From positions 1-64,000 of the forward strand of contig JAFZZK010000029.1 of NCBI GenBank assembly GCA_017615795.1: DNA of 64,000 bases, read 5' to 3'. Both the position numbers and the translations under genes were made by a program. The notes beneath the pieces are model-generated. The model was not told where the DNA came from, ran no database searches, and saw only the letters and a program-made list of their open reading frames with translations. Positions 46,320-63,013 of this stretch are shown here, one piece after another; positions within the stretch are counted from its first letter, which is position 1; each line of letters starts with the position of its first letter. The stretch comes from Bacteroidales bacterium. GTDB lineage: Bacteria > Bacteroidota > Bacteroidia > Bacteroidales > WCHB1-69.

Positions 46320-47585
46320 TTACATCTTGATTAAGGCCATGTCGGGAATGGGCAGGTCATACTCGCCCTTGGCCAAACGGCTCTTGATGTCGCGGAAGGC
46401 TTCCAAGGTGCGGTTGACGTCTTCTATGCTGTGCGCGGCAGTGGGGATGATGCGGAAAATGAGCATGCCGGCCGGAATGACGGGGTAGGTGACGATAGAA
46501 CAGAAAATGTTGTAGTTCTCGCGCAGGTCAACGGCGATGTTGGCGGCCTCGTTAATCTTGCAGGGCAGGAACACGGGGGTAACACAGGCCTCGGCGGGTC
46601 CGATGTCATAGCCTAACTCGCGGAAGCCTTTTTGCAGGCTGCGGGTGATCTCCCAGAGGTGGGCTCTGAGTCTGTCGCCCTCTTCGCTGCGGATGATTTC
46701 GAGACGTTTCAGGCAGCCGACCACGATGGGCATGGGCAGAGACTTGGCATACATTTGGGAGCGCATGTTGTAGCGCAGGAAATTGACGATGGCTTTTTCG
46801 GAAGCGACGAAGCCGCCGATGGTGGCCATGGACTTGGCGTAGGCGCCGATGTAGATGTCAATGTCGTCCATTACGCCGAAATGCTCGGAGGTGCCTCTGC
46901 CGTGCGGGCCCATGCAGCCGAAGCCGTGGGCATCGTCAATGAGTATGCGGAATTGGTATTTCTTCTTGAGGGCTGCAATTTGGTCAAGTATACCGAGCGC
47001 GCCGGTCATGCCGAACACACCTTCGGTGATGAGCAGGACACCGCCGCCTTGCTTGTCTGCAAGTTCGCAGGCGCTGGCAAGGATTTTGTCGCAATCTTCG
47101 ATGTCGTTGTGGCGGAATTTGAAACTTTTACCTATATGAAGACGGATGCCGTCGCGCAGGCATGCGTGGGCCTCGGCATCGTAAACGATGACATCGCGGC
47201 GGGTTACCAGGGAGTCGATGGTGGACATGATGCCTTGATAGCCGAAATTGAATTCGAAGGCCGCCTCCTTATGCTCGAATTCGGCCAGTTCTCTTTCTAA
47301 TTGCTCGTGCAGCGCGGTTTGTCCGGTCATCATGCGGCTGCCCATGGGGTACGCCATGCCCCAGCGCGCGGCGCCTTCCGCATCAGCCTTGCGCACCTCG
47401 GGATGGTTGGCCAATCCCAGGTAGTTGTTGATGCTCCAGCACAACACGTCTTTGCCGTTGAAACGCATGTGGGGGCCGAGCTCGCCCTCTAATTTTGGAA
47501 ATGCGAAATATCCGTCGATTTTTTCACGATATTGTCCAATGGGACCGCCGGATGATTCTTTGACTCTTTCAAAAATGTCCTTCAT
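46320..47585 (-). CDS. Alpha-oxoamine synthase (serine/cysteate acyltransferase-like)
   Basis: PLP enzyme of 421 residues in the group of KBL, 8-amino-7-oxononanoate synthase and serine palmitoyltransferase, which condense an amino acid with an acyl thioester and release CO2. NNYLGLANHPEV, GSRMMTGQT, ITEGVFGMTG, LIDDAHGFGCMG and AYAKSMATIGG (PLP Lys251) are present. It matches the subgroup I recall from Flavobacteria that begins MKDIFE and has a long FPKLEG N-terminal region. That subgroup is compatible with cysteate or serine as the amino-acid substrate. The neighbours are hemW and thioredoxins, but possible pathway partners occur further on (59975, 61784). Confidence 0.75.
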   Translation of the reverse strand: MKDIFERVKESSGGPIGQYREKIDGYFAFPKLEGELGPHMRFNGKDVLCWSINNYLGLANHPEVRKADAEGAARWGMAYPMGSRMMTGQTALHEQLERELAEFEHKEAAFEFNFGYQGIMSTIDSLVTRRDVIVYDAEAHACLRDGIRLHIGKSFKFRHNDIEDCDKILASACELADKQGGGVLLITEGVFGMTGALGILDQIAALKKKYQFRILIDDAHGFGCMGPHGRGTSEHFGVMDDIDIYIGAYAKSMATIGGFVASEKAIVNFLRYNMRSQMYAKSLPMPIVVGCLKRLEIIRSEEGDRLRAHLWEITRSLQKGFRELGYDIGPAEACVTPVFLPCKINEAANIAVDLRENYNIFCSIVTYPVIPAGMLIFRIIPTAAHSIEDVNRTLEAFRDIKSRLAKGEYDLPIPDMALIKM

Positions 47586-47616
47586 AGTAGTATTGTTGGG
47601 TTAAGTATTTTCGGAT

Positions 47617-49104
47617 TTATTGCTTGTTCTTTTTCAACTCTATTTTTTCATACTCTTCAAGGAATTGAGGCAGATTGAACATGTCAATTCGCTTGTTGAG
47701 GATGATGCGGTGGTCGGAATTGTCGATGATGAACATGGCCGGATTGCCCGTTTCGTATATGCCAAAGTAGTCAAGGTAATCTATGTTGCCCTTGTTGCCG
47801 CCGACTTGTGTCCATGGGTATTTGTTGTCCTTCACATACTTCTTCCACGCCTCGATGGTGTCGTCGTTGCCAATGGCGTAGACATCGAAATTACGTGTGC
47901 CTGCAGCCTCCAAGGAGTCGTATACTTGGCACAGTTTTTTGGATTCTTTCTTACAGGTAGGGCAGTTGGGATCGTAGAACCAGAGGATGGTATAGGGTTT
48001 TGTGGTGTGATATGACGATTTCCAAAGGCGGGCATCCTCGTACAAGTTGGTGTCAGGGATGATGAGCTCAGGGGCGATTTTCCCGATCAGGATGGGCTCG
48101 ATGCGCTTGACGCGCTTTTGATATTTGCCCAGAAGGTCTTCGTCAAGCCAGTAACACTTGCCGGCCAATTGGTTGGTCTTCGCAATATGATAGAACACGG
48201 CATCATGTCCGATGATCTTGCTGGTCTCGAATTCGTATGTGAGCCAACTGACACAATAGTGGTACATGAACGTGTCCTTTTCTGTCTTTGCCAAGAACAT
48301 GTCAATATATTGGTTGATGGTGTCGGATTTCTGGTAATAGAGTATTTTGGTGAAATACTCTTTCAATTTGGGCTCGAAAGAGGGAATATAAATGAAACGG
48401 TGGTCGCCGAGGTCGACATTGTCCCAATAATGTTTGCGATAATAGTACACCTGGGCTTCTTTGTCGACAGAGCCATCCTCTTTCGTGATCGTGGGCACTT
48501 CGATTTCTTGGTAGGATTTCTGCATCTTGGAGAACAGATAATCGGGATGGGCAGCGATGAGGTCATTGATGAAATCTTGCATCTCCGTGTTGAGATTCTT
48601 GAGTTTTTCCTTGTAGACATCTGCACTGTCCTTGTTGCCTGCGCCCTCAAATTCTTTCACTTTCTTGCCCCATTCCGTCGCTCTCTTCTGAGCGTCTGCA
48701 GTTTTGCGCTGGAACTTCAGCATCTCCACATTCTCGGGCGAATTTTGGACGTTGAAATTTTCAACGTTGCCTGTCGTGTCAAGGTTGTAGGTAAAGAATT
48801 GGTTGTTGTCGATAATGAAGTTCAGGTAGAGTTTCTTGTCACCGGACACGAGCGAATACATGCCGTCGTCATACTTCTTGGTCCCCTTGAATACGAATTT
48901 TCCAGGTGCAACGGGTGTCGCGGAGTCTTTAAGAATCAGCTTCTCATTGTAATGAATCACCAAGTACATCAATTTGTCCTTGGAGTTCTTGATGTTGAAA
49001 GTGATTTCGTGGCCTTGCTTGGGCGTGCTTTTGCCTTTTTGTGCGGAAAGGCCGCCTATGATGAAAACACAGATAAGAAAGAGTAATAAATAATGTTTTT
49101 TCAT
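47617..49104 (-). CDS. Thioredoxin-fold protein with N-terminal DUF4369/DUF5106-like region
   Basis: The 495-residue exported protein has a signal peptide (LLLFLICVFIIGGLSAQ). The first 110 residues have the beta-rich DUF4369 look (FKGTKKYDDGMYSL). A helical DUF5106-like region with charged residues follows at about 130-330. The last 150 residues form a TlpA/AhpC-type domain with the redox site WFYDPNCPTCKKES and a GNPAMFIID cis-Pro loop. It probably works in the periplasm as a thiol oxidoreductase. It lies nine bases downstream of a homologous gene. Confidence 0.78.
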   Translation of the reverse strand: MKKHYLLLFLICVFIIGGLSAQKGKSTPKQGHEITFNIKNSKDKLMYLVIHYNEKLILKDSATPVAPGKFVFKGTKKYDDGMYSLVSGDKKLYLNFIIDNNQFFTYNLDTTGNVENFNVQNSPENVEMLKFQRKTADAQKRATEWGKKVKEFEGAGNKDSADVYKEKLKNLNTEMQDFINDLIAAHPDYLFSKMQKSYQEIEVPTITKEDGSVDKEAQVYYYRKHYWDNVDLGDHRFIYIPSFEPKLKEYFTKILYYQKSDTINQYIDMFLAKTEKDTFMYHYCVSWLTYEFETSKIIGHDAVFYHIAKTNQLAGKCYWLDEDLLGKYQKRVKRIEPILIGKIAPELIIPDTNLYEDARLWKSSYHTTKPYTILWFYDPNCPTCKKESKKLCQVYDSLEAAGTRNFDVYAIGNDDTIEAWKKYVKDNKYPWTQVGGNKGNIDYLDYFGIYETGNPAMFIIDNSDHRIILNKRIDMFNLPQFLEEYEKIELKKNKQ

Positions 49105-49113
49105 AACTGGTTT

Positions 49114-50433
49114 TTATTCTTTTGTGGTTCTGTTTTTGAAAAATAAGCGTAATTCGTCTAACGTGATTTGACGTGCAATTATTGTGTGATCCTGTGTGTT
49201 GTCTATCAAGAACATCACAGGGGTGGTCATGATGTCGAAATACTCGATAAAGTCGATGTTCTGCTCTCCACGCGAGGTGCTCAGGTTGGTCCAGTCCCAA
49301 AGCTGATGCTTGTAGGAGAAGGCCTTCCAGCGCTCGTAGTCGTCGTTAACCTCAACGGCAAATACCTCAAAGTCGTAGTCGTTGCCATGCTCTTGGTAGA
49401 GTTGATGCAACGGCGGTGTCATCTCTTGGCAGTGGTCGCAGTCGGGGTCCCAGAACCAAAGGACGGTGTAATGGGCCTTGATGTCCAGGGTGGAATGTGC
49501 TTTGCCTTCGATGTCATGCGAGATGAGTTCGGGAATCCGGGCTCCAGGGATAATCTTGCGCAGATTGTTGATTTTTCGTTCTATACGGCGCTCGGAGCCC
49601 TCTTCAATCCAACTATGATCGTAATGGTCGTAGAGATGCACCAGCACGGGGTCGTAGTCGGGATTGTGGACATCCAACAGGGAAAAGAGGCTACGGATGT
49701 AGTAGTCGCGCACGATGGGGTTGGTGCAGCGTGACAGCAGCTGGTCAACCTTGGCGATGCAGTCGGCGGCATTTTGGTCTTCCGGCTCCAAGATGTATTC
49801 CAGCATGGCACGGATGTAGTGGCCGGGCACATGCAGGAGACGAGGATCTGAAAAGTCGATGAGGTCGAGCAGGTGTTGGTAGGCTGTGTTGTTGTTGAGA
49901 GCTTCTCCGTAGAGAGAGAAGTTGTCTATGCGGATATATTGGGTGACGAAAGCGTCAGGAGCGGTTTCGGCGAGGTTGTCCAGCATGGTGCGCACAAGTT
50001 CGCGCTTTTGGGACATCTGGGTGTGATAGCGGAGAAGTATGTTGTTCTCTTCGTTGTCCGACGATGCGTTGTCCGTAAGGTTGATGCTGAAATGATTCCC
50101 TTGGTTGATGATGACGGGGAAACTTCGGAGACTCAAAGCATCGAGATCCGAGGCGTTGGGGATGGGAGAAACCGTGTAGACTCCACAGGGGATCTCTTTC
50201 TTCTTGTTTTTGAAAGAGTTTGTGTTCTTAATCACGATTGAGCTGTCCAAGCAGTAGATATCAATGCCGTTGTGTCCATACAGATATAGTTTGGAGGGGA
50301 TCTCCTTTTCTCCTTTGATGGTGATGTCATATCCTTTCCGGACGGGTGTGCCGTTGTCGGTGGATACTTGTCCTTGGGTGGCGCAACCCCAGACGCAGCA
50401 GCAGAGTGAAAGAAGCAACAATCGTGGTTTCAT
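49114..50433 (-). CDS. Thioredoxin-fold lipoprotein, DUF5106-like paralogue
   Basis: The 439-residue protein starts MKPRLLLLSLCCCVWGC; the Cys after VWG could be a lipobox, otherwise the signal is ordinary. A shorter N-terminal domain, then a helical region with LYDHYDH, precedes the thioredoxin fold with WFWDPDCDHCQEM (CDHC instead of CPTC) and TTPVMFLID. It is clearly related to the next gene downstream, so the pair is a tandem duplication that has diverged, especially at the redox motif. The TTG at 50439 gives two more residues and was passed over for ATG at 50433. It follows glmM by 21 bases. Confidence 0.76.
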   Translation of the reverse strand: MKPRLLLLSLCCCVWGCATQGQVSTDNGTPVRKGYDITIKGEKEIPSKLYLYGHNGIDIYCLDSSIVIKNTNSFKNKKKEIPCGVYTVSPIPNASDLDALSLRSFPVIINQGNHFSINLTDNASSDNEENNILLRYHTQMSQKRELVRTMLDNLAETAPDAFVTQYIRIDNFSLYGEALNNNTAYQHLLDLIDFSDPRLLHVPGHYIRAMLEYILEPEDQNAADCIAKVDQLLSRCTNPIVRDYYIRSLFSLLDVHNPDYDPVLVHLYDHYDHSWIEEGSERRIERKINNLRKIIPGARIPELISHDIEGKAHSTLDIKAHYTVLWFWDPDCDHCQEMTPPLHQLYQEHGNDYDFEVFAVEVNDDYERWKAFSYKHQLWDWTNLSTSRGEQNIDFIEYFDIMTTPVMFLIDNTQDHTIIARQITLDELRLFFKNRTTKE

Positions 50434-50454
50434 GAGCAAACGCGGTATGCTTTG

Positions 50455-51843
50455 TTATTGGATGATTTCGCGGACGTCTTGGAGGATTTTGCGGGCGATG
50501 TTGTCGGCGGTGGACTCGGAGAGGGCTTCTGCATAGACGCGCAGGATGGGCTCGGTGTTGGAGCCGCGCACGTGTACCCAACTGTCCTCGAAGTCGATTT
50601 TGACGCCGTCGGTGCGATTGACCTCGTGGTTGGCATACTTTTCGGCGATGCTGTCGAGTATCTTGGCGGTGTCCATCTCGCCGCGCAGCTCGATTTTGTT
50701 CTTGGAGATCTTGTAGTCGGGATACAGGGAGCGGAGTTCAACGCAGGATTTGCCGGAGGTGGCCATGTAGGAGAGAATAAGGGCGATGCCCACGAGGGCG
50801 TCGCGGCCATAGTGCAGCTCGGGGTATATGACACCGCCGTTGCCTTCGCCGCCGATGACGGCGTTGGTGGCCTTCATCTTTTCCACCACGTTCACCTCGC
50901 CCACGGCAGAGGCATTGTATTCCACGCCGTACTGGCGGCTCACGTCGCGCAGTGCGCGGGTGGAGGAGAGGTTCGAGACGGTGTTGCCCGGCGTGTGCTG
51001 CAACACGTAGTCGGCCACGGAGACCAGCGTGTATTCTTCACCAAACATCTCCCCGTTGGGCTTGATGAAGGCGAGGCGGTCCACGTCGGGATCGACCACG
51101 AAGCCGATATCGTAGCGCTCCTTGTTCATCGCCTCAGAGATGCCATACAGGTTCTCTGGTATAGGTTCGGGATTGTGTGCAAATAGTCCGTTCGGCTCGT
51201 CGTTGAGCAGGGTGACTCGCTTGACGCCAAGTTGCTTCAACAGCGGCGGCAGGGCGATGGCACCCGTGGAGTTGATGGTGTCGATGATGACAGAGAAGTC
51301 GGCCTTGGCAATGGCATCGCGATTCACCAAGGGCAGACGCAGGATGGCATCAATATGGTCTTGGATCGAGTTTTCGTAGAGAGTGTATGTGCCGAGATTT
51401 TTGGCATCGGCATACTGGAATTCGTGCGCGGTGGCGATTTCTTGCAGCTTGCGCCCGTCCTCACTCGAGAGGAACTCGCCCTTGTCGTTGAGCAGTTTCA
51501 AGGCGTTCCATTGTCCGGGGTTGTGGGAAGCGGTGACGATGACGCCGCCATCGGCATGGTGGTGCAGCACCGCCATCTCTGTGGTGGGCGTGGTGGACAG
51601 CCCCGTGTCGATAACGTCGGCACCCATGCCTTGCAAGGTGCCGCAGACCAAACGGCTCACCATTTCGCCGGAGACGCGTGCGTCGCGACCCACCACGATG
51701 GTGATTTTTTTATCGCCGCAACTTCCCTGTATAAAGGCTGCGAAGGCTGAGGTGAGTTCAATGATGTCTATGGGGGTGAGGTTCTCGCCGGCGTTTCCGC
51801 CGATAGTGCCCCTGATGCCGGAAATGGACTTTATTAGTGTCAT
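50455..51843 (-). CDS. glmM: Phosphoglucosamine mutase
   Basis: Converts glucosamine 6-phosphate to glucosamine 1-phosphate for UDP-GlcNAc, feeding MurA. The 462-residue protein starts MTLIKSISGIRGTIGG (sugar-phosphate binding loop). TASHNPGQWN carries the phosphoserine Ser106, VVDPDVDRLAF the metal triplet, and GGEGNGGV and RGSNTEPILRVY the phosphate loop. The longer frame upstream runs through a repeat and is not used. The GlmM versus phosphomannomutase assignment rests on length and the ISGIRG start. A TACTTTTG box at 51877-51884 (minus) is the likely promoter. Confidence 0.87.
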   Translation of the reverse strand: MTLIKSISGIRGTIGGNAGENLTPIDIIELTSAFAAFIQGSCGDKKITIVVGRDARVSGEMVSRLVCGTLQGMGADVIDTGLSTTPTTEMAVLHHHADGGVIVTASHNPGQWNALKLLNDKGEFLSSEDGRKLQEIATAHEFQYADAKNLGTYTLYENSIQDHIDAILRLPLVNRDAIAKADFSVIIDTINSTGAIALPPLLKQLGVKRVTLLNDEPNGLFAHNPEPIPENLYGISEAMNKERYDIGFVVDPDVDRLAFIKPNGEMFGEEYTLVSVADYVLQHTPGNTVSNLSSTRALRDVSRQYGVEYNASAVGEVNVVEKMKATNAVIGGEGNGGVIYPELHYGRDALVGIALILSYMATSGKSCVELRSLYPDYKISKNKIELRGEMDTAKILDSIAEKYANHEVNRTDGVKIDFEDSWVHVRGSNTEPILRVYAEALSESTADNIARKILQDVREIIQ

Positions 51844-51876
51844 GAATCTCTTTGCTGTAGATTGGTTGTGAGGCCG

Positions 51877-51884
51877 CAAAAGTA
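51877..51884 (-). promoter_or_regulatory. -7 box for glmM
   Basis: On the minus strand the bases read TACTTTTG, preceded by a T-run and TTTG, 33 bases before the glmM ATG. Confidence 0.6.
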
Positions 51885-52341
51885 CAAAAAAAGCGGCGGA
51901 AATACAAACATTTTCTACTGCTATTTTTGGGACGTGAAAAGATGCCTTGAATTCACTTTTTCTGCAAAAACAGAACAAAATGTAAACTGTTTTCTTTCTG
52001 GATGAAAAGAGGGAATTGTTTGTCCGATGGCACAAAGTCTGCATTGTCGAGTCTCCAAACAATGCTTTTTCTCCAACTTCCTTTCGCGGCGCGGTGGAGC
52101 GTTGAGACGAGAAAGATCGTTGTTCGCCGCGAAACGGATGTGCCGTCAGGCGAGTGTGCGTGAGGGATTGCAGTGGAAATGGCTGGCTTGCCAGCCATTG
52201 CAACGGAAAGCCCGACGGCGCGGCGGCGGGAGCCACGCCGCGCCGGCACGCCCAAATAAAAAAAGTAAGAAACCCTGACGTCTTTGTGTCATTGGGTATA
52301 TTATTCCCCGAAAAGTTACAACCTCCGATAATTGAGGCACA
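51885..52341. other. Gene-free stretch with repeats
   Basis: No gene is accepted here. The left third (51885-52080) is AT-rich without visible structure. The middle (52082-52250) is a palindrome-rich element described separately. The right part (52251-52341) has an A-run and nothing I would call. Open frames of about 100 residues crossing the palindromes were rejected. Confidence 0.6.
52082..52250. repeat. Composite palindromic intergenic element
   Basis: Three perfect inverted repeats follow each other: arms 52082-52091 and 52125-52134; arms 52178-52187 and 52190-52199 (two-base loop); arms 52217-52225 and 52236-52244. The middle hairpin is flanked by a near-direct repeat, TTGCAGTGGAAA (52168-52179) and TTGCAACGGAAA (52198-52209). 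ACGGATGTG at 52134-52142 also occurs near 2266. The end, with GCACGCCCAAAT then an A-run, resembles a repetitive intergenic motif I recall from Bacteroidota. Confidence 0.72.
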
Positions 52342-53754: not shown

Positions 53755-53765
53755 GGGAAAAGGGA

Positions 53766-54515
53766 TTAGGACATGCCGCCGTCGCAAACGAGGGTCTGCC
53801 CCGTGACGTATGTGGCGAGGTCGGAGGCCAAGAAGAGGGCGCATCGGGCCACGTCTTTTGGGGTGCCTTGGCGGCGGAGGGCGATGCGTTGGAGGATGCT
53901 CTCTTTTTGTTCGGGTGACAAGGAGAGGGTCATCTCGGTGTCGATGAAGCCCGGGGCGATGGCGTTGACGCGGATGTTGCGGCTTCCCAATTCGCGGGCC
54001 AGCGACTTGGTGAAGGCGATAATGCCGGCTTTGGAAGCGGCATAGTTGGCCTGTCCTGCATTGCCGGAGATGCCGACCACGCTGGCCATGTTGATGATGA
54101 CACCTTGGCGCTGGCGCATCATGATAGGCGTGCAGGCGTGGGCATAGTTGAACACCGACTTGAGGTTGGTGTTGATGACATCATCCCACTGCTGCTCGCT
54201 CATGCGCATCAGCAGGGTGTCGTGGGTGATGCCGGCGTTGTTGACGAGAATGTCGATGTGGCCAAACCGTTCGTGGATGGCGGCCACCTGTTGCTGGACT
54301 TCGTCAAAACAAGAGACATCGCCCACGAATGCTTCCGCATCGCAGCCGATGTCTCTGAGTTCTTTAAGGGTTTGTTCGGCCTGTTCGCTGGCATGGCGGT
54401 ATACCAAGGCGATGGAGGCCCCGTTTTGGGCCATGGCCAACGCAATGGCCTTGCCGATGCCTCGGGAACCACCGGTGACGATGGCGACTTTGCCAGTGAG
54501 GTCGATGGTTGTCAT
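53766..54515 (-). CDS. fabG: 3-oxoacyl-[acyl-carrier-protein] reductase
   Basis: SDR that reduces 3-oxoacyl-ACP in fatty acid elongation. The 249-residue protein has TGGSRGIGKAIAL (NADPH loop), LVNNAGITHDTLLMRM (typical of FabG), NMASVVGISGNAGQANYAASKAG with catalytic Ser, Tyr and Lys, and APGFIDTEMT. The ATG directly follows the stop of the CoA-transferase alpha subunit, with no gap, so the two are cotranscribed and probably coupled. The DTLLMRM element supports FabG over other SDRs, although a 3-hydroxyacyl-CoA dehydrogenase role with the transferase is possible. Confidence 0.85.
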   Translation of the reverse strand: MTTIDLTGKVAIVTGGSRGIGKAIALAMAQNGASIALVYRHASEQAEQTLKELRDIGCDAEAFVGDVSCFDEVQQQVAAIHERFGHIDILVNNAGITHDTLLMRMSEQQWDDVINTNLKSVFNYAHACTPIMMRQRQGVIINMASVVGISGNAGQANYAASKAGIIAFTKSLARELGSRNIRVNAIAPGFIDTEMTLSLSPEQKESILQRIALRRQGTPKDVARCALFLASDLATYVTGQTLVCDGGMS

Positions 54516-55160
54516 TTACTTGACGATGTAGTTGACATAGATACCCGGGGTGTGGACGCTCTCCATGGGGATTTGGCCCACTTCGACCAGCTCCTTCGTC
54601 TCCACGATGACGATGTCAGCGGCGGCGGCCATCATCGGGTTGAAGTTCTGGGTCGTGCCCTTGTAGATGCAGTTGCCCATGGTGTCGCAGATGCTGGCGC
54701 CAATGAGGGCGACGTCGGCGTGGAGGGGTTTTTCTAGCAGATACTCTTCGCCGTCCACCATGACTTTTTGCTTGCCTTCCTCAACGATGGTGCCGAGGCC
54801 GGTCTTGGTGAGTACGCCGCCGAGGCCTGCGCCACCGCAACGGATACGCTCGGCCAGTGTGCCCTGCGGGCAGAACTCGATGTCAAGGGTCTTCTCGTTG
54901 AACTGTTGGATGGTGTCGGCATTGGTGCCGATGTGGGAAGCGTAGAGCTTCTTGACCTGCTTGTTGGCAATCAGCATGCCGATGGCCTTGTTGGGATAGG
55001 CGGTGTCGTTTCCGATGAGGGTGAGGTCTTTAACACCTCTCTTGGCAATAGCCTCGATGACTTTCACGGCAGAGCCGCAGCCGAGAAATCCGCCGTACAT
55101 GATGGTCATGCCGTCTTTTACGTAGGAGGCGGCTTCTTCTATGGTGATTAATTTACTCAT
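54516..55160 (-). CDS. 3-oxoacid/acetoacetate CoA-transferase alpha subunit (lone)
   Basis: The 214-residue protein matches subunit A of SCOT/AtoD-type CoA transferases: YGGFLGCGSAVKVIEAI (the CoA-binding GxGxxG-like loop), LTLIGNDTAYPN, FCPQGTLAERIRCGGAGLGGVLTKTGLGT and a DVALIGASICD segment. The catalytic Glu lies in subunit B, which is normally the next gene. Here the next gene is fabG and no B subunit is in the window. It could pair with a distant B subunit or act otherwise. It is followed without a gap by fabG. Confidence 0.85.
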   Translation of the reverse strand: MSKLITIEEAASYVKDGMTIMYGGFLGCGSAVKVIEAIAKRGVKDLTLIGNDTAYPNKAIGMLIANKQVKKLYASHIGTNADTIQQFNEKTLDIEFCPQGTLAERIRCGGAGLGGVLTKTGLGTIVEEGKQKVMVDGEEYLLEKPLHADVALIGASICDTMGNCIYKGTTQNFNPMMAAAADIVIVETKELVEVGQIPMESVHTPGIYVNYIVK

Positions 55161-55188
55161 TGTGTTAATTTTATAGGGTTGGACAAAG

Positions 55189-55213: not shown

Positions 55214-55220
55214 TTGTTTT

Positions 55221-56501: not shown

Positions 56502-56558
56502 GTCTTATTTTTATAAGTTATTGATTAATATATATATTGACTTTTTATAACAAGGTTG

Positions 56559-56566
56559 CAAATATA
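56559..56566 (-). promoter_or_regulatory. -7 box for glyA
   Basis: On the minus strand the bases read TATATTTG, about 57 bases before the glyA ATG, preceded by a T-run. Confidence 0.6.
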
Positions 56567-56661
56567 TAAAAAAAAAGTGTACGATGGGAGAAGAGTGTGA
56601 AAATAGGGTGGCGCTCCATGGTCATGTCGTCCATGCTAGAATGGCATTGGCCGTTTTTTTG

Positions 56662-56669
56662 TATTTTTG
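56662..56669 (+). promoter_or_regulatory. -7 box for the hemerythrin-regulator operon
   Basis: TATTTTTG preceded by TTTTTTTG, 47 bases before the ATG at 56717. Confidence 0.6.
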
Positions 56670-56716
56670 CCCCGTCTTATCCGATCCTAAACAAAACCAA
56701 ATCCAAGTAACACTCT

Positions 56717-57430
56717 ATGAAGAACATCGACTCTAAGATTCCTGTAGTGTTCGCCCGCAAAAAAATGGCCGACCTGCTAACGGAACGCAGCAACCTCATC
56801 TCTTTGCTCCCTCGGTTGGGTGTTTCCCTCGGCTTCGGAGAAAAGACCGTTGCACAGGTTTGCGCCGATGACAAGATATCCCTGCCGCTGTTCCTGCTTA
56901 TCAGCAATGTCTACACGATGGACGACTACCTGCCTTCCATTGAAGAGCTGCGCCAGTGTCCCATAGAGGAAATTGTCGTTTATTTGACTAATTCGCACAA
57001 GGAGTACCTTGAATATAAGTTTCCCCATATCGAAGAACATTTAAAAGAAGTCGTTGCGGATTGGAGCGAGAAGTACAAACGACTGATAACTAATTTCTTC
57101 TTTGACTACAAGAACGAAGTGGTGGATCATTTCAAGTATGAAGAGGATGTTGTTTTCCCCTTTATAAAAAAACTATTTGAAAAAAAATCACCCAAGAAAA
57201 ACCGTCCGCGTCGCAGTGCCTTCGACAAGCAGCACACCAATATTGAGGATAAATTGCGCGACTTCACCAATCTGCTCATCAAGTATATACCCGCCGATGT
57301 GTCGCAGCGCGAGCGCATAGACATGCTGGAGGACATCTGCTCTTTGTCGGATGACATCGAGAAGCACGCCCTTATCGAGGAGAAGATATTGTTTCCGTAT
57401 ATCAATCTTTTAGAAGATGAAAGCAAATAA
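56717..57430 (+). CDS. Hemerythrin-domain protein
   Basis: The 237-residue protein has an N-terminal region of about 75 residues (DLLTERSNLISLLPRLGVSLGFGEKTVAQVC, like the ScdA N-terminal helical domain) and a hemerythrin-like four-helix bundle. The di-iron ligand pattern is visible: NSHKEYLEYKFPHIEEHL, DHFKYEEDVVFPF, DKQHTNIEDKL and EKHALIEEKILFPYI (His and Glu spaced as H...H-x3-E). It may bind oxygen or NO, or repair iron centres as RIC/YtfE proteins do. It overlaps the LuxR-type regulator gene by 14 bases and thus may deliver the signal for it. Confidence 0.82.
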   Translation: MKNIDSKIPVVFARKKMADLLTERSNLISLLPRLGVSLGFGEKTVAQVCADDKISLPLFLLISNVYTMDDYLPSIEELRQCPIEEIVVYLTNSHKEYLEYKFPHIEEHLKEVVADWSEKYKRLITNFFFDYKNEVVDHFKYEEDVVFPFIKKLFEKKSPKKNRPRRSAFDKQHTNIEDKLRDFTNLLIKYIPADVSQRERIDMLEDICSLSDDIEKHALIEEKILFPYINLLEDESK

Positions 57431-58010
57431 GATAGCCATTGCCGATCCGTCTCCCATCGTTATCGCAGGGCTGTCTGCCTTGTTGCGGGAGCTGTCCGAC
57501 TGTGAGGTGGTTTTGCAGTCGGACGACATGCACACGGTGGAGACACGCCTGCGCATCCTCCGCCCCGATGTGCTCATCATCAACCCTTTGATGATCGATT
57601 TTTCCAAGCGTCGCATGGTGCGGTCGCAATTCGAGGATCTGCCCGACATGCACTTGGTGGCACTGATCTCCTCATACGTTGAATCGCAGATTCTCAAGCA
57701 GTTCCATGGCGTTATAGAGCTCAATGACGACATGCAGCGCATCAAGTCCACATTGCAGCAGGTAAGTGTTAAGCAGACTGGTGATGCAGAGATGGATTCT
57801 TCTATGTTGTCCGACCGTGAAAAAGATGTGCTGATCTGCCTTGCCAAGGGCCAAAAGAACAACGAGATTGCGGAAAATCTCCACATATCCACCCATACGG
57901 TTATCACGCATCGCAAGAATATTGTCCGGAAGACGGGCATCAAGTCCGTGTCAGCCCTTACCGTGTATGCGATTCTTAACAACCTTCTGGAACAGAAGGA
58001 TATTATTTAG
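57417..58010 (+). CDS. LuxR/NarL-type regulator with degenerate receiver
   Basis: The 197-residue protein has an N-terminal receiver-like domain (1-115) and a LuxR helix-turn-helix at about 135-195: LSDREKDVLICLAKGQKNNEIAENLHIS and TVITHRKNIVRKTGIKSV. In the receiver, the phospho-acceptor Asp is Asn in the sequence PDVLIINP. One member of the N-terminal acidic pair is Pro (IADPSP), and the conserved Lys near the end is absent. So it is probably not phosphorylated and may be controlled by protein contact with its hemerythrin partner. It overlaps that gene by 14 bases. Confidence 0.82.
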   Translation: MKANKIAIADPSPIVIAGLSALLRELSDCEVVLQSDDMHTVETRLRILRPDVLIINPLMIDFSKRRMVRSQFEDLPDMHLVALISSYVESQILKQFHGVIELNDDMQRIKSTLQQVSVKQTGDAEMDSSMLSDREKDVLICLAKGQKNNEIAENLHISTHTVITHRKNIVRKTGIKSVSALTVYAILNNLLEQKDII

Positions 58011-58025
58011 AAATAACTTTTTAAG

Positions 58026-58058
58026 GCAAAAAAAAGGTGTCCAAACGGACACCCCTTT
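58026..58058 (-). terminator. Terminator of the DUF2147 gene
   Basis: A seven-base stem (58036-58042 with 58047-58053) is followed on the minus strand by eight T residues. The plus-strand T-run is shorter, but it may also serve the regulator gene. Confidence 0.82.
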
Positions 58059-58064
58059 TGTGTG

Positions 58065-58484
58065 TTACTTCTGTGGCCGAAGTTTGGACTCGCGGGTCCA
58101 GTCAACGGTCATTCCGAACAGCGACACGCCCAAATAACCGCGCATTTTGAGGGTCTTGCCGTAGTTTACCAACCGGATGTAGGTCTTGTAGGTGCCCTTT
58201 TTGCCGGGATATTTCAGCTTGCCGTTCTGGTATTCGTTGTCTTTGGCGTTGTAGGTCAGGCCGGTCATGAAGACGAGCCCGAGTTGGTTTTTCTTTTTGG
58301 GGTTCTCCACCCAAACCACCTTGGCCTCGTAAGTGCCGTCGGCGGCCTTGTAGATTTCGCATTGGGAACCCTCTTTGGAGAAGGGGTCCACGGAGTGGAA
58401 AATGCCGCAAATATCATCCGCATTTTGAGCGGACAAAGAGAAGCCCAGCAGGGCGATGAACAGGGTGATCAAAGTCTTTTTCAT
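58065..58484 (-). CDS. DUF2147 secreted protein
   Basis: The 139-residue protein has a signal peptide (KKTLITLFIALLGFSLSAQ) and one DUF2147 domain: CGIFHSVDPF, EIYKAADGTYEAKVVW, NGKLKYPGKKGTYKTYI and a closing RGYLG...DWTRESK. Such proteins are small beta-barrel-like exported proteins of unknown function, sometimes near fatty acid genes. It precedes the terminator shared with the regulator gene and lies 32 bases downstream of the PepC-like gene. Confidence 0.87.
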   Translation of the reverse strand: MKKTLITLFIALLGFSLSAQNADDICGIFHSVDPFSKEGSQCEIYKAADGTYEAKVVWVENPKKKNQLGLVFMTGLTYNAKDNEYQNGKLKYPGKKGTYKTYIRLVNYGKTLKMRGYLGVSLFGMTVDWTRESKLRPQK

Positions 58485-58516
58485 AGTGGTATTTTTCTAT
58501 GTCAACAGATTATGGT

Positions 58517-59923
58517 TTATTCCTCGGGGGCGAACAATGGGTCCCAAGGCGGGAGATAGATGGGCGTTTGGTCGAAAAGTTTAAGGGTGGCGGCGGGGAT
58601 GTATTTGGACTCCACCACCAAACGGAACATGTATTCGTTGAACCACTCGTTGGTCATGATGAGGAAGCCGTTGTGGCCGTATTTGCTGCCCCAGCTGTTC
58701 TCGACCATCCACTTGAGCGGTCTGCCATCCTTGTCGAGATCGACGGCGCAGAGCGTCATAGCGTGTGTGGAGCCGCTGGCGTACGTGGCGATGCGCTGGC
58801 GCTTGTCCATGTTGAACGAGGTGCCGAAAAGGGAACCGTAGTCGTAGTTGTTGATGTCCATGTAGCCGGTCTCGCGGTCGAGGAACTTGCCCACGTCGCA
58901 GGAGAAATACATGTTGGTGCTGTCCTTGATGGAGGCGATGGCCATGTCGGCGATGTCGCTCATCGGCAGGTTGAGGTAGCGCCAGTTCTGGCCGTCATAG
59001 ACGTGCCGGTCGTACTGGATCTCATATACGCGGTAGTACTCGCGGGTGGGGTCGTTCATCACCATGTAGTACTTGCTGAAATCCTCGTTGGCGAACTTGG
59101 CGGCGAACGACTTCGGGGTATACTTGTCGGTGCTGACGATTTCGCCCTTGGCGTTGCGCTGTGTCCAGGTAAATTCGGTGGGAGGCTCGCCCAAGGAGAA
59201 CACTAACATCTTGTAGATGACCTTCAGCATCTCCATCTTCTTGTCCTGCAGCATTTTTTCGGTGGTGCTTTTGTTGTTGGCCATTTCCCGCAAAATCAGT
59301 CCGTCTTCGCGTAGACGAAGCTTGATGAGCGACGACATCTGCGAGGTGTGGTTGCTGCTGTAGGTCTCTGGCATAGCCTCTTTGGGCATAATGCCGTACT
59401 TGGTGACCAAGTTGGCCACACCTGTAAACTGGCCGCCGTCGCCAATCGGGTTTTGGAAGAGCCATTTCACGGTCTCGTCTTCCATCGATTTGGCGCGGTT
59501 GTCGAGGATGGACTGCAGGAAGAGGTTCGCCTTCTCCAGTTGGTCCCAGAAAAAGGTATAGCACTGCGAGAACTGGAAGTCGGAGGGCAGGTCATATTGG
59601 GCGATGGCCTTGGCGCGGAGCACGTTCATGCCCGTGAACATCCAGCATCGGCCGGACGAGGCCTGGTCTGTAATGGCCTTGGAGGGCACTTGGTTGGAGA
59701 AATGGGCGTCGAATGCGGTGTTGTTGTCGTAGTTTTTGGCCAACTTGTTGATGTCGTTGGCCACCACTGCGTTGCGGAGAGCCTTTTCAACACCAGTGCC
59801 CTTGTAGGAGTTCTGCAAGGTGGCGATTTGGTCGGAGGACAATCCGCCATTTTGGCTGATGTTCTGTCCGAAGACAAAGGACAGGCAGCCGACGGCTAAG
59901 GTTAGGAGGAATAATTTTTTCAT
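58517..59923 (-). CDS. Exported PepC/bleomycin hydrolase-like peptidase
   Basis: The 468-residue papain-family peptidase has a signal peptide (FLLTLAVGCLSFVFGQ), so it is exported, unlike cytoplasmic PepC. The catalytic residues are seen: QASSGRCWMF with Cys93, YASGSTHAMTL with the His, and VENSWGSKYGH with the Asn. Length and the long insert between Cys and His fit the bleomycin hydrolase group, whose members form hexameric rings. It lies before DUF2147 on the same strand. The SDR gene is 51 bases upstream. Confidence 0.9.
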   Translation of the reverse strand: MKKLFLLTLAVGCLSFVFGQNISQNGGLSSDQIATLQNSYKGTGVEKALRNAVVANDINKLAKNYDNNTAFDAHFSNQVPSKAITDQASSGRCWMFTGMNVLRAKAIAQYDLPSDFQFSQCYTFFWDQLEKANLFLQSILDNRAKSMEDETVKWLFQNPIGDGGQFTGVANLVTKYGIMPKEAMPETYSSNHTSQMSSLIKLRLREDGLILREMANNKSTTEKMLQDKKMEMLKVIYKMLVFSLGEPPTEFTWTQRNAKGEIVSTDKYTPKSFAAKFANEDFSKYYMVMNDPTREYYRVYEIQYDRHVYDGQNWRYLNLPMSDIADMAIASIKDSTNMYFSCDVGKFLDRETGYMDINNYDYGSLFGTSFNMDKRQRIATYASGSTHAMTLCAVDLDKDGRPLKWMVENSWGSKYGHNGFLIMTNEWFNEYMFRLVVESKYIPAATLKLFDQTPIYLPPWDPLFAPEE

Positions 59924-59974
59924 TGGATATTAAGTGTTTAAATTATGCTTGTTATGGTTTGAGGATGTGTTGCC

Positions 59975-60775
59975 TTACATGGGTTTGATTTTGCGGGCGA
60001 GTTTGGCGCAGAGGTTGGGGAAGAAGCGTTTGATGTGGGCCATGATCAGTTCGGAGCTGCCCACCAGTTGTTCGCGTTTCTCCTTGGCGATGGCCTTGAA
60101 GATGATGTGCGATGCCTTCTCGGGCGTGATGCCGCCGGCCTGTCCCGCGTCCATCTTGCCGTGCTTGCGTCCGTCCTTCTCCAGCGAGTTGACGGAGATG
60201 TTGGTCTGCACGCGCCCGGGGGTGAGGATGGTCACCCGGATGTTGTCCTTGTGGTTCTCTGCCGCCACGGTCTCGAAGAAGCCGTAGAGGGCGTGCTTCG
60301 CCGACGAGTAGGCGCAGCGCAACGGGAACCCGAAGAGTCCGGCGATGCTGGTGGTGACGGCCAGCTGTCCGCCGCCCTGCGCGATCATCTTGGGCAGGAT
60401 AGCCTTGGTGAGGATGACAGGCGCATAGAAGTCGATGTCCATCACCTTGCGGATGACCGCCATGTCAGTTTCCACGGTGGTGCCGCGCTGGCTGATGCCG
60501 GCATTGTTGTAAAAGAGATCGATGCGTCCGTAGGTGTTCCAGGCATCCTCTGCGAGTTGCGGCAGCGCATCGGTTCGCGAGAGGTCGAAGGGGAGGTTGG
60601 TTACCGCCTCGGCGCCACGCCGCAGACACTCCTCGCGGACCTGCTCCAAGAGATCAGGCTCCAGCGCTGTGAGAACCAGCCGCGCACCTGCTTCCGCGAA
60701 ACGGAAGGCGGTCTCCTTGCCGATGCCGGAGGAGGTGCCCGTGATCCATATCACTTTTTTCGTATAGTCATTCAT
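59975..60775 (-). CDS. Short-chain dehydrogenase (candidate 3-keto-lipid reductase)
   Basis: This 266-residue classical SDR has WITGTSSGIGKET (NAD(P) loop), FYNNAGISQRGTT, a TTSIAGLFGFPLRCAYSSAKHA segment with catalytic Ser, Tyr and Lys, and TPGRVQTNISV. The C-terminus is basic and amphipathic (HIKRFFPNLCAKLARKIKP), which could touch membranes. That fits reductases of long-chain 3-keto lipids such as 3-ketosphinganine or 3-ketocapnine, but it is inference. The TTG start at 60823 is rejected because a TACCTTTG promoter box covers that position. The true ATG is at 60775. Confidence 0.8.
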   Translation of the reverse strand: MNDYTKKVIWITGTSSGIGKETAFRFAEAGARLVLTALEPDLLEQVREECLRRGAEAVTNLPFDLSRTDALPQLAEDAWNTYGRIDLFYNNAGISQRGTTVETDMAVIRKVMDIDFYAPVILTKAILPKMIAQGGGQLAVTTSIAGLFGFPLRCAYSSAKHALYGFFETVAAENHKDNIRVTILTPGRVQTNISVNSLEKDGRKHGKMDAGQAGGITPEKASHIIFKAIAKEKREQLVGSSELIMAHIKRFFPNLCAKLARKIKPM

Positions 60776-60820
60776 AATCAATTCTTCTCCCTTGTTTGGG
60801 ACAATTTGTGTTATCGGCGG

Positions 60821-60828
60821 CAAAGGTA
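60821..60828 (-). promoter_or_regulatory. -7 box for the SDR gene
   Basis: On the minus strand the bases read TACCTTTG, 45 bases before the ATG at 60775. The box overlaps the alternative start and so decides against it. Confidence 0.6.
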
Positions 60829-60852
60829 CATAAATTATGAATACATGGACAA

Positions 60853-61053
60853 ATGTTTTCGGAGCGGCAGCAGGCCAACGACCTCTTCCAGGGGATGCTC
60901 ATCCGTCTGTGGAAAGGCTTTGGCAGCTTCGAGGGCCGCAGCTCGGAGAAGACATTCTTTATCTGGCTTCTTTTGCGTCTCTTTGATCTACTCTTTTGGT
61001 ATATCCTTCTCTTAGCCATAGGCATTCCTGTCCGTCGTATCGCTAAGAGGTAA
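60853..61053 (+). pseudogene. Remnant of an ECF sigma-factor gene
   Basis: A 66-codon frame encodes about 30 residues (RQQANDLFQGMLIRLWKGF, GSFEGRSSEKTFFIW) resembling region 2 of ECF sigma factors, where relatives have DDLYQEIFLRLW and SFRGESSFSTWLY. Then the frame turns into an unrelated hydrophobic stretch. The N-terminal 20-30 residues, regions 3 and 4 and the -35-binding helix are missing, and a stop lies just upstream of the frame. It is therefore read as a decayed gene. A short membrane peptide that happens to resemble region 2 is the alternative. Confidence 0.45.
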
Positions 61054-61107
61054 TGGTTTCATGATAATTCACCCTGCCATGTGGTGGGGCGAACTTGAAG
61101 AAACGCC

Positions 61108-61656
61108 TTATTGGAAGGTGTAGCGCACCCCGAGGTTTACCAATCCCCAGTCGAAGGTGTGGTTGACGGTGATCTCATGGTTGAATTGGAAACGGTAGCC
61201 CGGACGGAAGTCTATCTGTAGGGCGAGGGGGATGCCGAATTTGTATTCCAAGCCGATGATGCCGTGGGCTCCGCTTTTGCCCATGATGTTCTTGATCTGC
61301 ATCTCTGGTGAGGATGGGATGTAATATGACACTGACGGATGCCAGCTGAACCCGAGGCTGACGCCCCCTCCCACAAAGCCGTACAGGCCTTTTACAAAGT
61401 GCCCCTCATACACGAGGCTTGCGGCGAGTTCGGTTGTCCACAGCGTGGAGCCGTAGCCTGCGATGATGCTGTAGTTGTACTTGGTGCCCAAGTCGAGCTG
61501 GATGGCGAAGTGGTCGGTGGGAAAGGTCTTGTAGGAGAGTGCCTGCATGGATCCGACCGTCGCGCCGATGCCGTGCCTGTAGGGGGACTGAGCGTTGGCT
61601 TTAAACACTATGGCAGCCATAATGGCAAGAAGTGCAATAAAACTGTGTTTCGTCAT
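61108..61656 (-). CDS. Small outer-membrane beta-barrel protein
   Basis: The 182-residue protein has a signal peptide (FIALLAIMAAIVFKANAQ) and alternating strands: HGIGATVGSMQALS, FAIQLDLGTKYN, GLYGFVGGGVSLGFS, GIIGLEYKFGIPLALQIDF and GLVNLGVRYTFQ. The C-terminal aromatic plus Gln fits the small outer-membrane barrel family. The function is unknown. It is separated from the cysteate-synthase-like gene by a terminator, and on the other side it faces the sigma-factor remnant. Confidence 0.77.
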   Translation of the reverse strand: MTKHSFIALLAIMAAIVFKANAQSPYRHGIGATVGSMQALSYKTFPTDHFAIQLDLGTKYNYSIIAGYGSTLWTTELAASLVYEGHFVKGLYGFVGGGVSLGFSWHPSVSYYIPSSPEMQIKNIMGKSGAHGIIGLEYKFGIPLALQIDFRPGYRFQFNHEITVNHTFDWGLVNLGVRYTFQ

Positions 61657-61710
61657 GTTGTTTTTTATGTTTTCTTGAAATTGTATAACCTAAATGTGTC
61701 CCATGAAAAA

Positions 61711-61738
61711 CAAGCGGCTTGCCGAATAGCAGCCCGCT
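61711..61738 (-). terminator. Terminator of the PLP enzyme gene
   Basis: Outer stem of six bases (AAGCGG with CCGCTT on the minus strand) with a partly paired interior, followed by GTTTTT. It lies past the stop at 61784. Confidence 0.6.
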
Positions 61739-61783
61739 TTGTTGGAAATGGAATGACAGTTGCCGTGGCTTGTGGACGTGCAA

Positions 61784-63013
61784 CTAAATTTCGTCTATCA
61801 TTTTCTTGAAAAACGTGGCCCTTGCGGCGCCTTCGCCCGTGTTGAGAAGGACGGTCTCGCCGTTGTGGATCTGCCCCTCTTCCAGTGCTTTGTAGAATCC
61901 GGCGAAGCAGACGATGGAGGCGGGTCCGAGATAGATGCCGCGCTCGTTCTTGACGATCTTGCCGTATTGGGCCAGTTCGCTCTCTTTCACCTGCAGAAAG
62001 GTGCCGCCGCTCTTGCGCACGATGGGCGCCACGATGGGATACATGCCCGGGTTGCCGGCGGAGAGGATGGACACCATGGTCTGGGGGTTCGGAATGACGG
62101 GGTAGTCCTTCTCATAACCCTCCGGGAATCCGGCGGCCACAGCTTTGTTCCAGCCCTGCACCATCGGGTCGCAAGTGTCCTGCTGGATCAGCAACATGCG
62201 GGGCAGCTTTGTGTCGGGGAAGGTGGTCTGCATATCGCGCACGCCCTTGTCGAGGGCGATGGGGCCTGTGCCGCCCGCGACGGCCTGCACATATACGTCG
62301 GGCATCTTGCCCAATTGGCGCAGGTACTCGAATACCATTGTCTTCTTGGCCTCCACGCGGATGGGGTCGATGTTGCCGGCGGAGATGAGCACGTGGTTCT
62401 TCTGGTGGAAGTCGGAGGCCTCCTTCTTGGCGTCACCATAGTTGCCCTCGCATACGACCACGTTCTGGCCGTAGGAGCGGATGGCCTTGACGGTGTCCTC
62501 ACACGCGTCGTGAGGCATGAAGACCGTGAACTTGATGCCAGCTTCGGCAAGATAGCGGGCGTAGGCCGTGGCCGTGTTGCCCGTGGAGGCAACACAGAAC
62601 TCCTTCACGCCGTTCTCCTTGAAGAGGGAGGCAGCCAACGATGCGGCAATGTCCTTGAATGTGTTGCTGCCGCCGTTCAGGTCGTTGCGGTAGACCATCA
62701 CCCGACAGTCGATGCCATATTTTTCTTTTGCCAACTTCTCTAGGAAATCCCACTCCTCGATTGGAATGGCACCCTCTCCGAAGGAGACGATGTTCTTCTC
62801 GTCCATCACAGGCAGGAAGTCAAAATAATGGTAGAAATTGGCCGGTTTGTGCTCGGGCTTGGTCAGCTCGGTGATTTTGTGATAGTCGGCGGAATAGACC
62901 ACTTCGGCGCGTTTGCAGCCGCAGGGACACTCCTGGTTCATCTCAAACCAAGTGGCAAAGTCATCAATGACCTTGCCGCATTTCGTGCATACGAGTTTAT
63001 ATTTATTATTCAT
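61784..63013 (-). CDS. PLP enzyme: cysteate synthase-like/threonine synthase family
   Basis: The 409-residue beta-family PLP protein has an N-terminal zinc-ribbon-like pair (C9, C12 and C29/C31/C33). FGEGAIP, NDLNGGSNTFKDIAA with PLP Lys120, and CVASTGNTATAYAR (phosphate loop) follow. MPDVYVQAVAGGTGPIALDKG then resembles the QAVGSGTG segment of archaeal cysteate synthase more than the GSGG loop of threonine synthases. Cysteate synthase makes L-cysteate from O-phosphoserine and sulfite. Threonine synthase remains the alternative. A promoter (TATCTTTG, 63063-63070 minus) and a downstream terminator make it a single-gene unit. The ATG at 63013 was chosen over an upstream frame start that crosses the promoter. 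Confidence 0.72.
   Translation of the reverse strand: MNNKYKLVCTKCGKVIDDFATWFEMNQECPCGCKRAEVVYSADYHKITELTKPEHKPANFYHYFDFLPVMDEKNIVSFGEGAIPIEEWDFLEKLAKEKYGIDCRVMVYRNDLNGGSNTFKDIAASLAASLFKENGVKEFCVASTGNTATAYARYLAEAGIKFTVFMPHDACEDTVKAIRSYGQNVVVCEGNYGDAKKEASDFHQKNHVLISAGNIDPIRVEAKKTMVFEYLRQLGKMPDVYVQAVAGGTGPIALDKGVRDMQTTFPDTKLPRMLLIQQDTCDPMVQGWNKAVAAGFPEGYEKDYPVIPNPQTMVSILSAGNPGMYPIVAPIVRKSGGTFLQVKESELAQYGKIVKNERGIYLGPASIVCFAGFYKALEEGQIHNGETVLLNTGEGAARATFFKKMIDEI

Follow-up and report, generated by a model that had tools for sequence, protein, structure and literature searches.

The 64,000-nucleotide stretch of Bacteroidales DNA analysed here (the window), which probably comes from a rumen bacterium, carries three separate genes for which a sequence-only reading had proposed one common task, raising the question of whether they supply the three steps that lead to capnine, the long-chain base of sulfonolipids. 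All three open reading frames are present where that reading had placed them, each on the minus strand (Table 1), and they lie apart from one another rather than in one operon, as it had said. Based on sequence and gene order, we consider it very probable that the three scattered genes make capnine. Chance was excluded because E-values reach down to 1e-174 and the synteny of the three genes is conserved in other genomes. New are a divergent family of candidate cysteate synthases and a proposed supply of sulfite by an sHdr-like complex.

Table 1. Genes of the predicted capnine pathway in the window
Predicted product	Position	Strand	Evidence
Alpha-oxoamine synthase, SulA/CapB-type cysteate acyl-ACP transferase	46320..47585	-	421 aa; SulA similarity, Lys251, Lys281
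SDR, candidate 3-ketocapnine reductase	59975..60775	-	266 aa; adh_short 160 bits; synteny
PLP fold type II enzyme, candidate divergent cysteate synthase	61784..63013	-	409 aa; PF00291; Lys120

In the proposed sequence of reactions, the PLP enzyme would swap the phosphate of O-phospho-L-serine for sulfite to give L-cysteate, with the sulfite probably supplied by CysD-CysN-CysH in the window's genome. SulA, judged by its close homology to an assayed enzyme, would then join cysteate and acyl-ACP to 3-ketocapnine with loss of CO2, and the SDR, judged by its synteny, would reduce 3-ketocapnine to capnine. A search by eye through the conserved neighbourhood revealed no clear candidate for an N-acyltransferase.

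By sequence, the oxoamine synthase belongs with the SulA/CapB-type cysteate acyltransferases. It matches Alistipes finegoldii SulA (7u7h) with 583 bits and 62.7% identity over 415 aa, and cysteate-C-fatty acyltransferase (28eh) with 547 bits, compared with 214 bits for serine palmitoyltransferase, 185-199 for KBL-type enzymes and 162 or less for BioF; it thus groups with SulA and not with KBL or BioF. Lys251, which had been named as the PLP lysine, was confirmed, and K281, H140 and N53 are present as well. According to the accessible part of PMC9304779, Lys281 distinguishes SulA from Spt, which has alanine at this site. This lysine is found in 61 of 61 homologues from related loci, which also retain Lys251, and in 50 of 50 other loci where the site aligned (a set that partly overlaps with the 61), while the second oxoamine synthase of the window's own genome has Asn there. 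We counted one residue against our reading: position 255 is a Gly in SulA whose backbone contacts Lys281 (PMC9304779, same part), and the window protein carries Thr. That the enzyme is instead a serine palmitoyltransferase or KBL, with which it has the superfamily in common, is extremely improbable given the distance between the scores and the presence of Lys281.

The arrangement of the genes in relatives supports the view that the three proteins act in one pathway. Among 80 related loci, SulA is adjacent to the PLP enzyme in 59 and the complete run SulA-PLP enzyme-SDR occurs in 46, with both intergenic gaps below 30 bp in 25 of these 46. Most likely, the capnine genes formed one run that was dispersed in the window's genome; their failure to make up a single unit in the window was counted against our reading. 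Across 295 Bacteroidales genomes, the association of the window PLP family with SulA is modest (48 of 55 genomes with the family versus 168 of 240 without it; p = 0.01). Because 7 of the 55 lack SulA (E<=1e-100), among them G018, cysteate may serve another purpose in those genomes, or their assemblies may be gapped.

The same neighbourhoods tie the SDR genetically to sulA: in 50 of the 80 loci the gene immediately downstream of the PLP enzyme is its orthologue, and synteny is what assigns the reductase step to this protein as a candidate 3-ketocapnine reductase. The basic amphipathic C-terminus ascribed to it was borne out, since the last 28 residues have a net charge of +5, and their helical moment is 0.63 (shuffle mean 0.36; 1.3% of 2000 shuffles were equally high). 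It may not be the sole or main reductase, because the accessible part of PMC11211663 describes for A. finegoldii three 3-ketocapnine reductases, all active and encoded at scattered positions. In line with these scattered enzymes, and with nine PF00106 matches in the window's own genome (two being pieces of one frame), another SDR might reduce 3-ketocapnine while SulA and the PLP enzyme act as stated and this SDR serves another 3-keto substrate. We judge this unlikely in view of its position directly behind the PLP enzyme in so many loci and of its retention, at 59% and 58% identity, in two operons that contain a different cysteate synthase (G312 and G313, described below).

The PLP enzyme required closer scrutiny. 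Lys120, the proposed PLP lysine, lies in an NTFKD motif and is invariant in a 30-sequence alignment, in which the family also shows a nearly invariant QAVxGGTxPIA loop, an N-terminal CxxC and a conserved QQDxCDPMV segment. As had been suggested, the loop is nearer to that of cysteate synthase (QAVGSGTGAIA in 9k3c) than to that of ThrC (PVGNAGNITA). The candidate assignment as a cysteate synthase is supported indirectly by gene context, but the protein misses the cut-off of the archaeal-type cysteate synthase model TIGR03844 (131.9 versus 324.9 bits; members above the cut-off reach 418-510). It is likewise below the cut-offs for ThrC (PRK08197, 183 of 303 bits; TIGR00260, 96 of 167; four further ThrC models listed). 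It does score ThrC models and structures above TIGR03844 or 9k3c, which we counted against our reading. The Capnocytophaga cysteate synthase CapA is cystathionine-beta-synthase-like, and no CBS model is among the best 25 of the 33 profile matches of the window protein. In a phylogenetic tree, the window family formed its own clade, outside the TIGR03844 clade and apart from two ThrC groups. With a CysK-like protein as root, a single and very long outgroup branch, it was joined to TIGR03844 (100/97). It is a separate family and probably the sister of TIGR03844. A first reading from the scores, independent recruitment from ThrC, was dropped in favour of this CysK-rooted topology, with its one very long outgroup branch.

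Could the PLP enzyme simply be the threonine synthase of the cell, its sulA neighbourhood in relatives being incidental? Its higher PRK08197 score would fit, and in the 87%-complete assembly of the window's genome no further PF00291 protein and no other ThrC-like enzyme was found. We nevertheless consider this highly improbable. The protein does not group with threonine synthases in the tree, and in 13 genomes the family is accompanied by a second PLP protein, 25-27% identical; the two of these placed in the tree both fall with ThrC. Moreover, thrB exceeded its cut-off in none of 25 genomes of the window's genus (best match 49.6 bits versus 168), although the control exceeded the cut-off in 11 of 14, which ones not being given, so a low-scoring ThrB may have been missed. 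Operons that unite the family with sulA, cysH and cysDN, and the substitution by TIGR03844 within the genus, argue in the same direction. We regard the enzyme as a candidate member of a divergent cysteate synthase family.

The fold and the donor would equally suit an O-phosphoserine sulfhydrylase, or some other enzyme of phosphoserine beta-replacement, with cysteine and not cysteate as product. Such an enzyme could be wanted, because, of 25 genomes of the genus, just 1 showed a CysK-like PF00291 protein (by length and sequence). On the substrate side, a serC-like protein in 22 of these 25 favours our reading of the enzyme as a cysteate synthase, whereas the search of the window's own, 87% complete genome gave no SerC, which we counted against it. 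Formation of cysteine is improbable, if slightly less so than a role as threonine synthase, since the family shares operons with sulA, whose substrate is cysteate, since it is linked to cysH, whose product is sulfite and not sulfide, and since it alternates with TIGR03844.

This alternation is complete in the genomes surveyed. Among the 295 Bacteroidales genomes, the window PLP family is present in 55, TIGR03844 in 85 and both in none (expected 15.8); with one genome per family, the counts are 23, 30 and 0 of 108. Neither type was found in 86 of the 216 genomes with SulA. Within the window's genus, TIGR03844 takes the place of the window PLP family in G312 and G313, in one run VOC-SulA-SDR-HdrC1-B1-A-C2-B2-TIGR03844 (421 and 418 bits). 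The two loci are near-identical to each other.

Cysteate synthase uses sulfite as co-substrate, and sulfite, not sulfide, is the product of cysH/cysD/cysN. In five genomes (G077, G062, G130, G210 and G050), SulA and the PLP enzyme are separated by a CysH-like gene. Distant members of the window PLP family have cysH/cysD/cysN neighbours: cysH-cysD-cysN-transporter-cysQ runs into the PLP enzyme in G147 and G055, and G018 has cysH-cysD-cysN-PLP enzyme in a row. The window's own genome carries cysD-cysN-cysH in a row on another contig, and three genomes of its genus have no CysH match and an sHdrA-like protein instead. Overall, CysH or an sHdrA-like protein is encoded in 201 of 216 genomes with SulA versus 15 of 79 without it. 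The sHdrA-like proteins of relatives match 6tjr, which we take to be Hyphomicrobium sHdrA, with 181 and 204 bits. Eight loci (L186, L187, L219, L220, L221, L222, L231 and L232) show the order C1-B1-A-C2-B2; the order differs in L215 and L216, L223 lacks C1/B1, and the window-genus loci L214, L217 and L218 show B1-A alone within the 15 kb examined. We tentatively propose, at somewhat less than even likelihood, that Bacteroidales possess a further cysteate synthase family exchangeable with the archaeal-type one, together with the pathway's own sulfite supply: CysH (APS/PAPS reductase) or, where gut and rumen lineages lack CysH, an sHdr-like complex whose oxidation of sulfane sulfur to sulfite would serve biosynthesis and not energy.

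Sulfonolipid producers are usually predicted from sulA and known cysteate synthases. The window family is easily missed in this way, because it falls under the TIGR03844 cut-off and its best-scoring models are those of threonine synthase. The sulfite source for cysteate in gut anaerobes is not stated in the accessible parts of the sulfonolipid papers, and it becomes directly testable through the split of CysH and sHdrA-like proteins between genomes with and without sulA. If the proposal is true, the sHdr-like complex gains a biosynthetic role. Sulfonolipids of human-associated Bacteroidota have reported effects on inflammation and signalling (PMC11211663, accessible part), and among literature titles and abstract openings none dealt with a capnine or sulfonolipid pathway in rumen bacteria.

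Compared with CapA-CapB-CapC of Capnocytophaga and Ornithobacterium and with SulA/CFAT and KCR of Alistipes and Chryseobacterium, the three steps are alike, the window SulA is 63% identical to that of A. finegoldii with the diagnostic Lys281, and the reductase is an SDR, whereas the cysteate synthase is of another family and the host is an uncultured Bacteroidales. In relatives of the window the genes are often clustered, whereas the kcr genes of A. finegoldii are not clustered with cfat and Cys (PMC11211663, accessible part). With threonine synthases (PRK08197/TIGR00260), the window family shares fold, overall length and a profile score above that for cysteate synthase, but it forms a clade of its own, stays under the ThrC cut-offs, is linked to sulA and cysH and belongs to a genus with no thrB over the cut-off. 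With TIGR03844 (9k3c) it has in common PLP fold type II, the QAVxxGTGxIA loop, a sister position under the CysK-like outgroup and, judging by G312 and G313, the operon partners SulA, SDR and Hdr-like proteins; it differs in being about 24% identical, in reaching 132 of the 325 bits that the cut-off demands, in its CxxC and QQDxCDPMV elements and in co-occurring in 0 of 295 genomes. The type I sHdr system of sulfur oxidisers, which forms sulfite, has the core set shdrC1B1AHC2B2 and requires LbpA. Neither sHdrH nor lbpA was recognised by eye beside the relatives' Hdr-like clusters, and their B2 N-terminus looks membrane-anchored, also by eye. Several relatives' loci, though not the window, share its C1-B1-A-C2-B2 order, their A subunit of ~340 aa matches 6tjr over nearly its full length, and, unlike in that system, their clusters adjoin sulfonolipid genes.

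The three open reading frames that a sequence-only reading had assigned to capnine synthesis were found at the coordinates it gave, all on the minus strand. The oxoamine synthase scored 583 bits against Alistipes finegoldii SulA (7u7h; 62.7% identity over 415 aa) and 547 bits against a second cysteate acyltransferase (28eh), while serine palmitoyltransferases (Spt) scored 214 bits. KBL-type enzymes reached 185-199 bits against the 583 of SulA, which does not agree with the alternative that this enzyme is a KBL. The predicted PLP lysine, K251, is present and is accompanied by K281; Lys281 tells SulA from Spt according to an excerpt of PMC9304779. Both lysines are kept in 61/61 SulA homologues from related loci and, where the site aligned, in 50/50 from other loci, the two sets partly overlapping. 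A second oxoamine synthase of the same genome has Asn at the Lys281 site. At position 255 the window protein has Thr, and SulA has Gly (PMC9304779).

The PLP enzyme was the only PF00291 protein found in its own genome, which is 87% complete. It falls below the cut-offs of the cysteate synthase model TIGR03844 (132 vs 325 bits) and of the threonine synthase (ThrC) models PRK08197 (183 vs 303) and TIGR00260 (96 vs 167). Its nearest PDB match is ThrC (114 bits), with a weak likeness to cysteate synthase 9k3c (59 bits), the aligned part of which scores 470 bits on TIGR03844. A tree with 58 rows placed the PLP enzyme apart from the ThrC proteins (100/96) and from TIGR03844 plus 9k3c (100/100), in a group of its own (99/98), hereafter the window family. 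Once a CysK-like outgroup was added, TIGR03844 became the sister of the window family (100/97), the outgroup branch being very long. The C-terminus of the SDR, described as basic and amphipathic, indeed carries a net charge of +5 and a helical moment of 0.63, vs 0.36 for shuffles.

Coordinates of features in the window and in loci from relatives (L handles)
Feature	Location	Strand	Remark
Oxoamine synthase, SulA-type	46320-47585	minus	best PDB match A. finegoldii SulA 7u7h
SDR	59975-60775	minus	basic amphipathic C-terminus
PLP enzyme	61784-63013	minus	PF00291
VOC-domain protein	L181:8189-9265		
VOC-domain protein	L182:11207-12259		
VOC-domain protein	L227:9141-10196		
VOC-domain protein	L229:3237-4328		
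VOC-domain protein	L231:1396-2478		
VOC-domain protein	L031:8288-9355		
Short ~147 aa ORF	L221:6302-6742		
Short ~147 aa ORF	L223:6542-6997		
Short ~147 aa ORF	L231:12827-13261		
Short ~147 aa ORF	L232:6573-7007		

A scan of named genomes gave 114 loci, the best 80 of which were kept; by their titles, many come from herbivores (rumen, omasum, cecum or faeces). In 46 of these best 80, the PLP enzyme is flanked on the same strand by SulA, at most 500 bp upstream, and by the SDR, at most 600 bp downstream; 59 loci have SulA as an immediate neighbour and 50 the SDR. In 14 the sequence fetched showed no SulA, and 4 of these reach a contig edge on that side. In the window the genes do not form one operon, as had been stated: the PLP enzyme and the SDR, with one gene between them, lie 12-15 kb from SulA. 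The run has most likely been dispersed here, because SulA still has upstream of it the phosphoglucomutase-like gene and the two thioredoxin-like lipoproteins that precede it in close relatives (L009, L011, L012, L015, L016, L018 and L020) while its partners are distant. The SulA match, K281 and the conserved SulA-PLP enzyme-SDR run in relatives uphold the capnine reading, and a capnine pathway is thus a supported prediction for the three genes.

Other genes were noted as well. What by eye is an AMP-binding, acyl-CoA ligase-like protein directly follows the SDR in close relatives (L010:4236-5897; cluster c21 in L012, L015 and L016) and might supply the pathway with acyl groups. In G316, a genome of the window's genus, two PLP enzyme copies (L234, L235) each have an adjoining SDR and a SulA 4-5 kb off. 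In the window, a CoA-transferase alpha-subunit-like ORF (54516-55160, identified by eye) abuts a FabG-like SDR (53766-54515); no beta subunit was seen beside it among the window ORFs listed.

We compared the two synthase types over a set of 295 Bacteroidales genomes, made up of the window's own and of others that are at least 90% complete. These overlap with the named-genome loci (contigs of equal length, e.g. L005 and G309:C4), and their counts are therefore not independent of the 80-locus counts. TIGR03844 was over cut-off in 85/295 genomes and the window family (E<=2e-76, at least 41% identity; next match 29%, 2e-39) in 55/295; the two never occurred together, vs 15.8 genomes expected (Fisher 1e-9, uncorrected for kinship). 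When each family was represented by a single genome (handles G001-G108, taken from the listed rows to be families f1-f108), the counts were 30/108, 23/108 and 0/108 (p = 0.0004). SulA-type enzymes (E<=1e-100), present in 216/295, accompany 82/85 TIGR03844 genomes (p = 3e-10) and 48/55 window-family genomes (p = 0.01). SulA was absent from seven of the latter (G018, G032, G154, G167, G224, G258, G282), where metagenome assemblies may miss genes, and 86 of the 295 have SulA and neither synthase. A PF00291 search of 25 genomes of the window's genus gave the window type by score band in 19 (9 besides the window's own confirmed by sequence), two fragments in one, nothing in three and another type in G312 and G313. 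The latter two carry a single run, VOC protein-SulA-SDR-HdrC1-HdrB1-HdrA-HdrC2-HdrB2-TIGR03844 (SulA 85-86% and SDR 58-59% identity; TIGR03844 421 and 418 bits); their loci are near-identical and so count as one event.

A double glyoxalase/VOC-domain protein of ~355 aa stands beside sulfonolipid genes in several orders in 26 of the best 80 of 114 loci and adjoins SulA in loci of both synthase types. It has no match in the window and is a candidate accessory gene of sulfonolipid loci.

CapA acts on phosphoserine according to an excerpt of PMC10191378. In the window's genus, phosphoserine is likely available and phosphohomoserine seemingly not, because a SerC-like protein occurs in 22/25 genomes (one a fragment; ~427 bits vs the model's 443.6) and thrB is over cut-off in 0/25 (best 49.6 bits; the control passed in 11/14). 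The SerC-like protein was not found in the window's own genome, at 87% completeness.

Sulfite is the co-substrate of cysteate synthase. Five genomes with distantly related window-family enzymes (G077, G062, G130, G210, G050) have a CysH-like gene flanked by SulA on one side and the PLP enzyme on the other; that of G077 exceeds the CysH cut-off (223 vs 154), and the other four calls rest on BLAST and genome search. G147 and G055 carry the run cysH-cysD-cysN-DASS transporter-cysQ-PLP enzyme, and G018 cysH-cysD-cysN-PLP enzyme. CysH lies within 10 kb of the synthase gene in 7/27 window-family genomes (those with a CysH place listed) and in 0/60 TIGR03844 genomes (contigs compared by hand; G105 at 12 kb). 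In the window's own genome cysD, cysN and cysH follow one another on a different contig. There (C8, minus strand, L213:9604-16136) a PstSCAB-like ABC transporter, recognised by eye, precedes the three genes and would import either sulfate or phosphate.

Hdr-like genes were present in the fetched neighbourhood of 19 of the best 80 of 114 loci. The order C1-B1-A-C2-B2 is seen in L186, L187, L219, L220, L221, L222, L231 and L232, and another order in L215 and L216. For the A subunit, matches of 181 and 204 bits to 6tjr (349 aa), which we take to be Hyphomicrobium sHdrA, extend over almost the full length. In family f8, C1-B1-A-C2-B2 leads into the TIGR03844 gene in G008 and G198, and A-C2-B2 precedes it in G262; G192, G109 and G001, of the window's genus, have only HdrB1-HdrA at the fetched place. 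Excerpts of three papers describe type I sHdr as defined by shdrC1B1AHC2B2 (PMC11582611), as releasing sulfite (PMC12423496) and as needing LbpA (PMC10332631). No sHdrH or LbpA could be recognised next to the Bacteroidales clusters, which we therefore call sHdr-like; their B2 has a membrane-like segment that recalls quinone-linked complexes too. A short ORF, by eye possibly a MarR-type regulator, flanks Hdr-cysteate synthase clusters in two families.

sHdrA-like proteins occur in 103/295 genomes (5.4e-71 or better, leaving out 11 with weaker matches only) and CysH matches in 181/295 (177 over cut-off). One or both are present in 201/216 genomes with SulA vs 15/79 without (Fisher 2e-35), or 77/84 vs 7/24 with one genome per family (p = 2.5e-9); the exceptions number 15 on each side, and metagenome assemblies may miss genes. 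Among SulA genomes, 65 have both, 102 CysH only, 34 sHdrA only and 15 neither, a negative association (p = 0.0003; per family p = 0.01). Ranked by the PLP enzyme, the 11 genomes closest to the window divide into its own, with CysH only, and 10 with sHdrA-like proteins only, one of these lacking a SulA match.

In the open-licence PMC literature we found no paper that connects sulfonolipids with the window's PLP family or with an Hdr-like complex, and cysteate did not turn up in term searches of PMC13232883 and PMC12345210. The new parts are the putative divergent cysteate synthase and the proposed sulfite supply, through CysH or, as an alternative, the sHdr-like complex. The CapABC and SulA pathway itself is known, and Alistipes and Odoribacter have an archaeal cysteate synthase homologue in place of CapA (review PMC10191378, in part); KCR genes are scattered (excerpt of PMC11211663), and Labilibaculum combines capnine lipids with capABC homologues (excerpt of PMC12927429).
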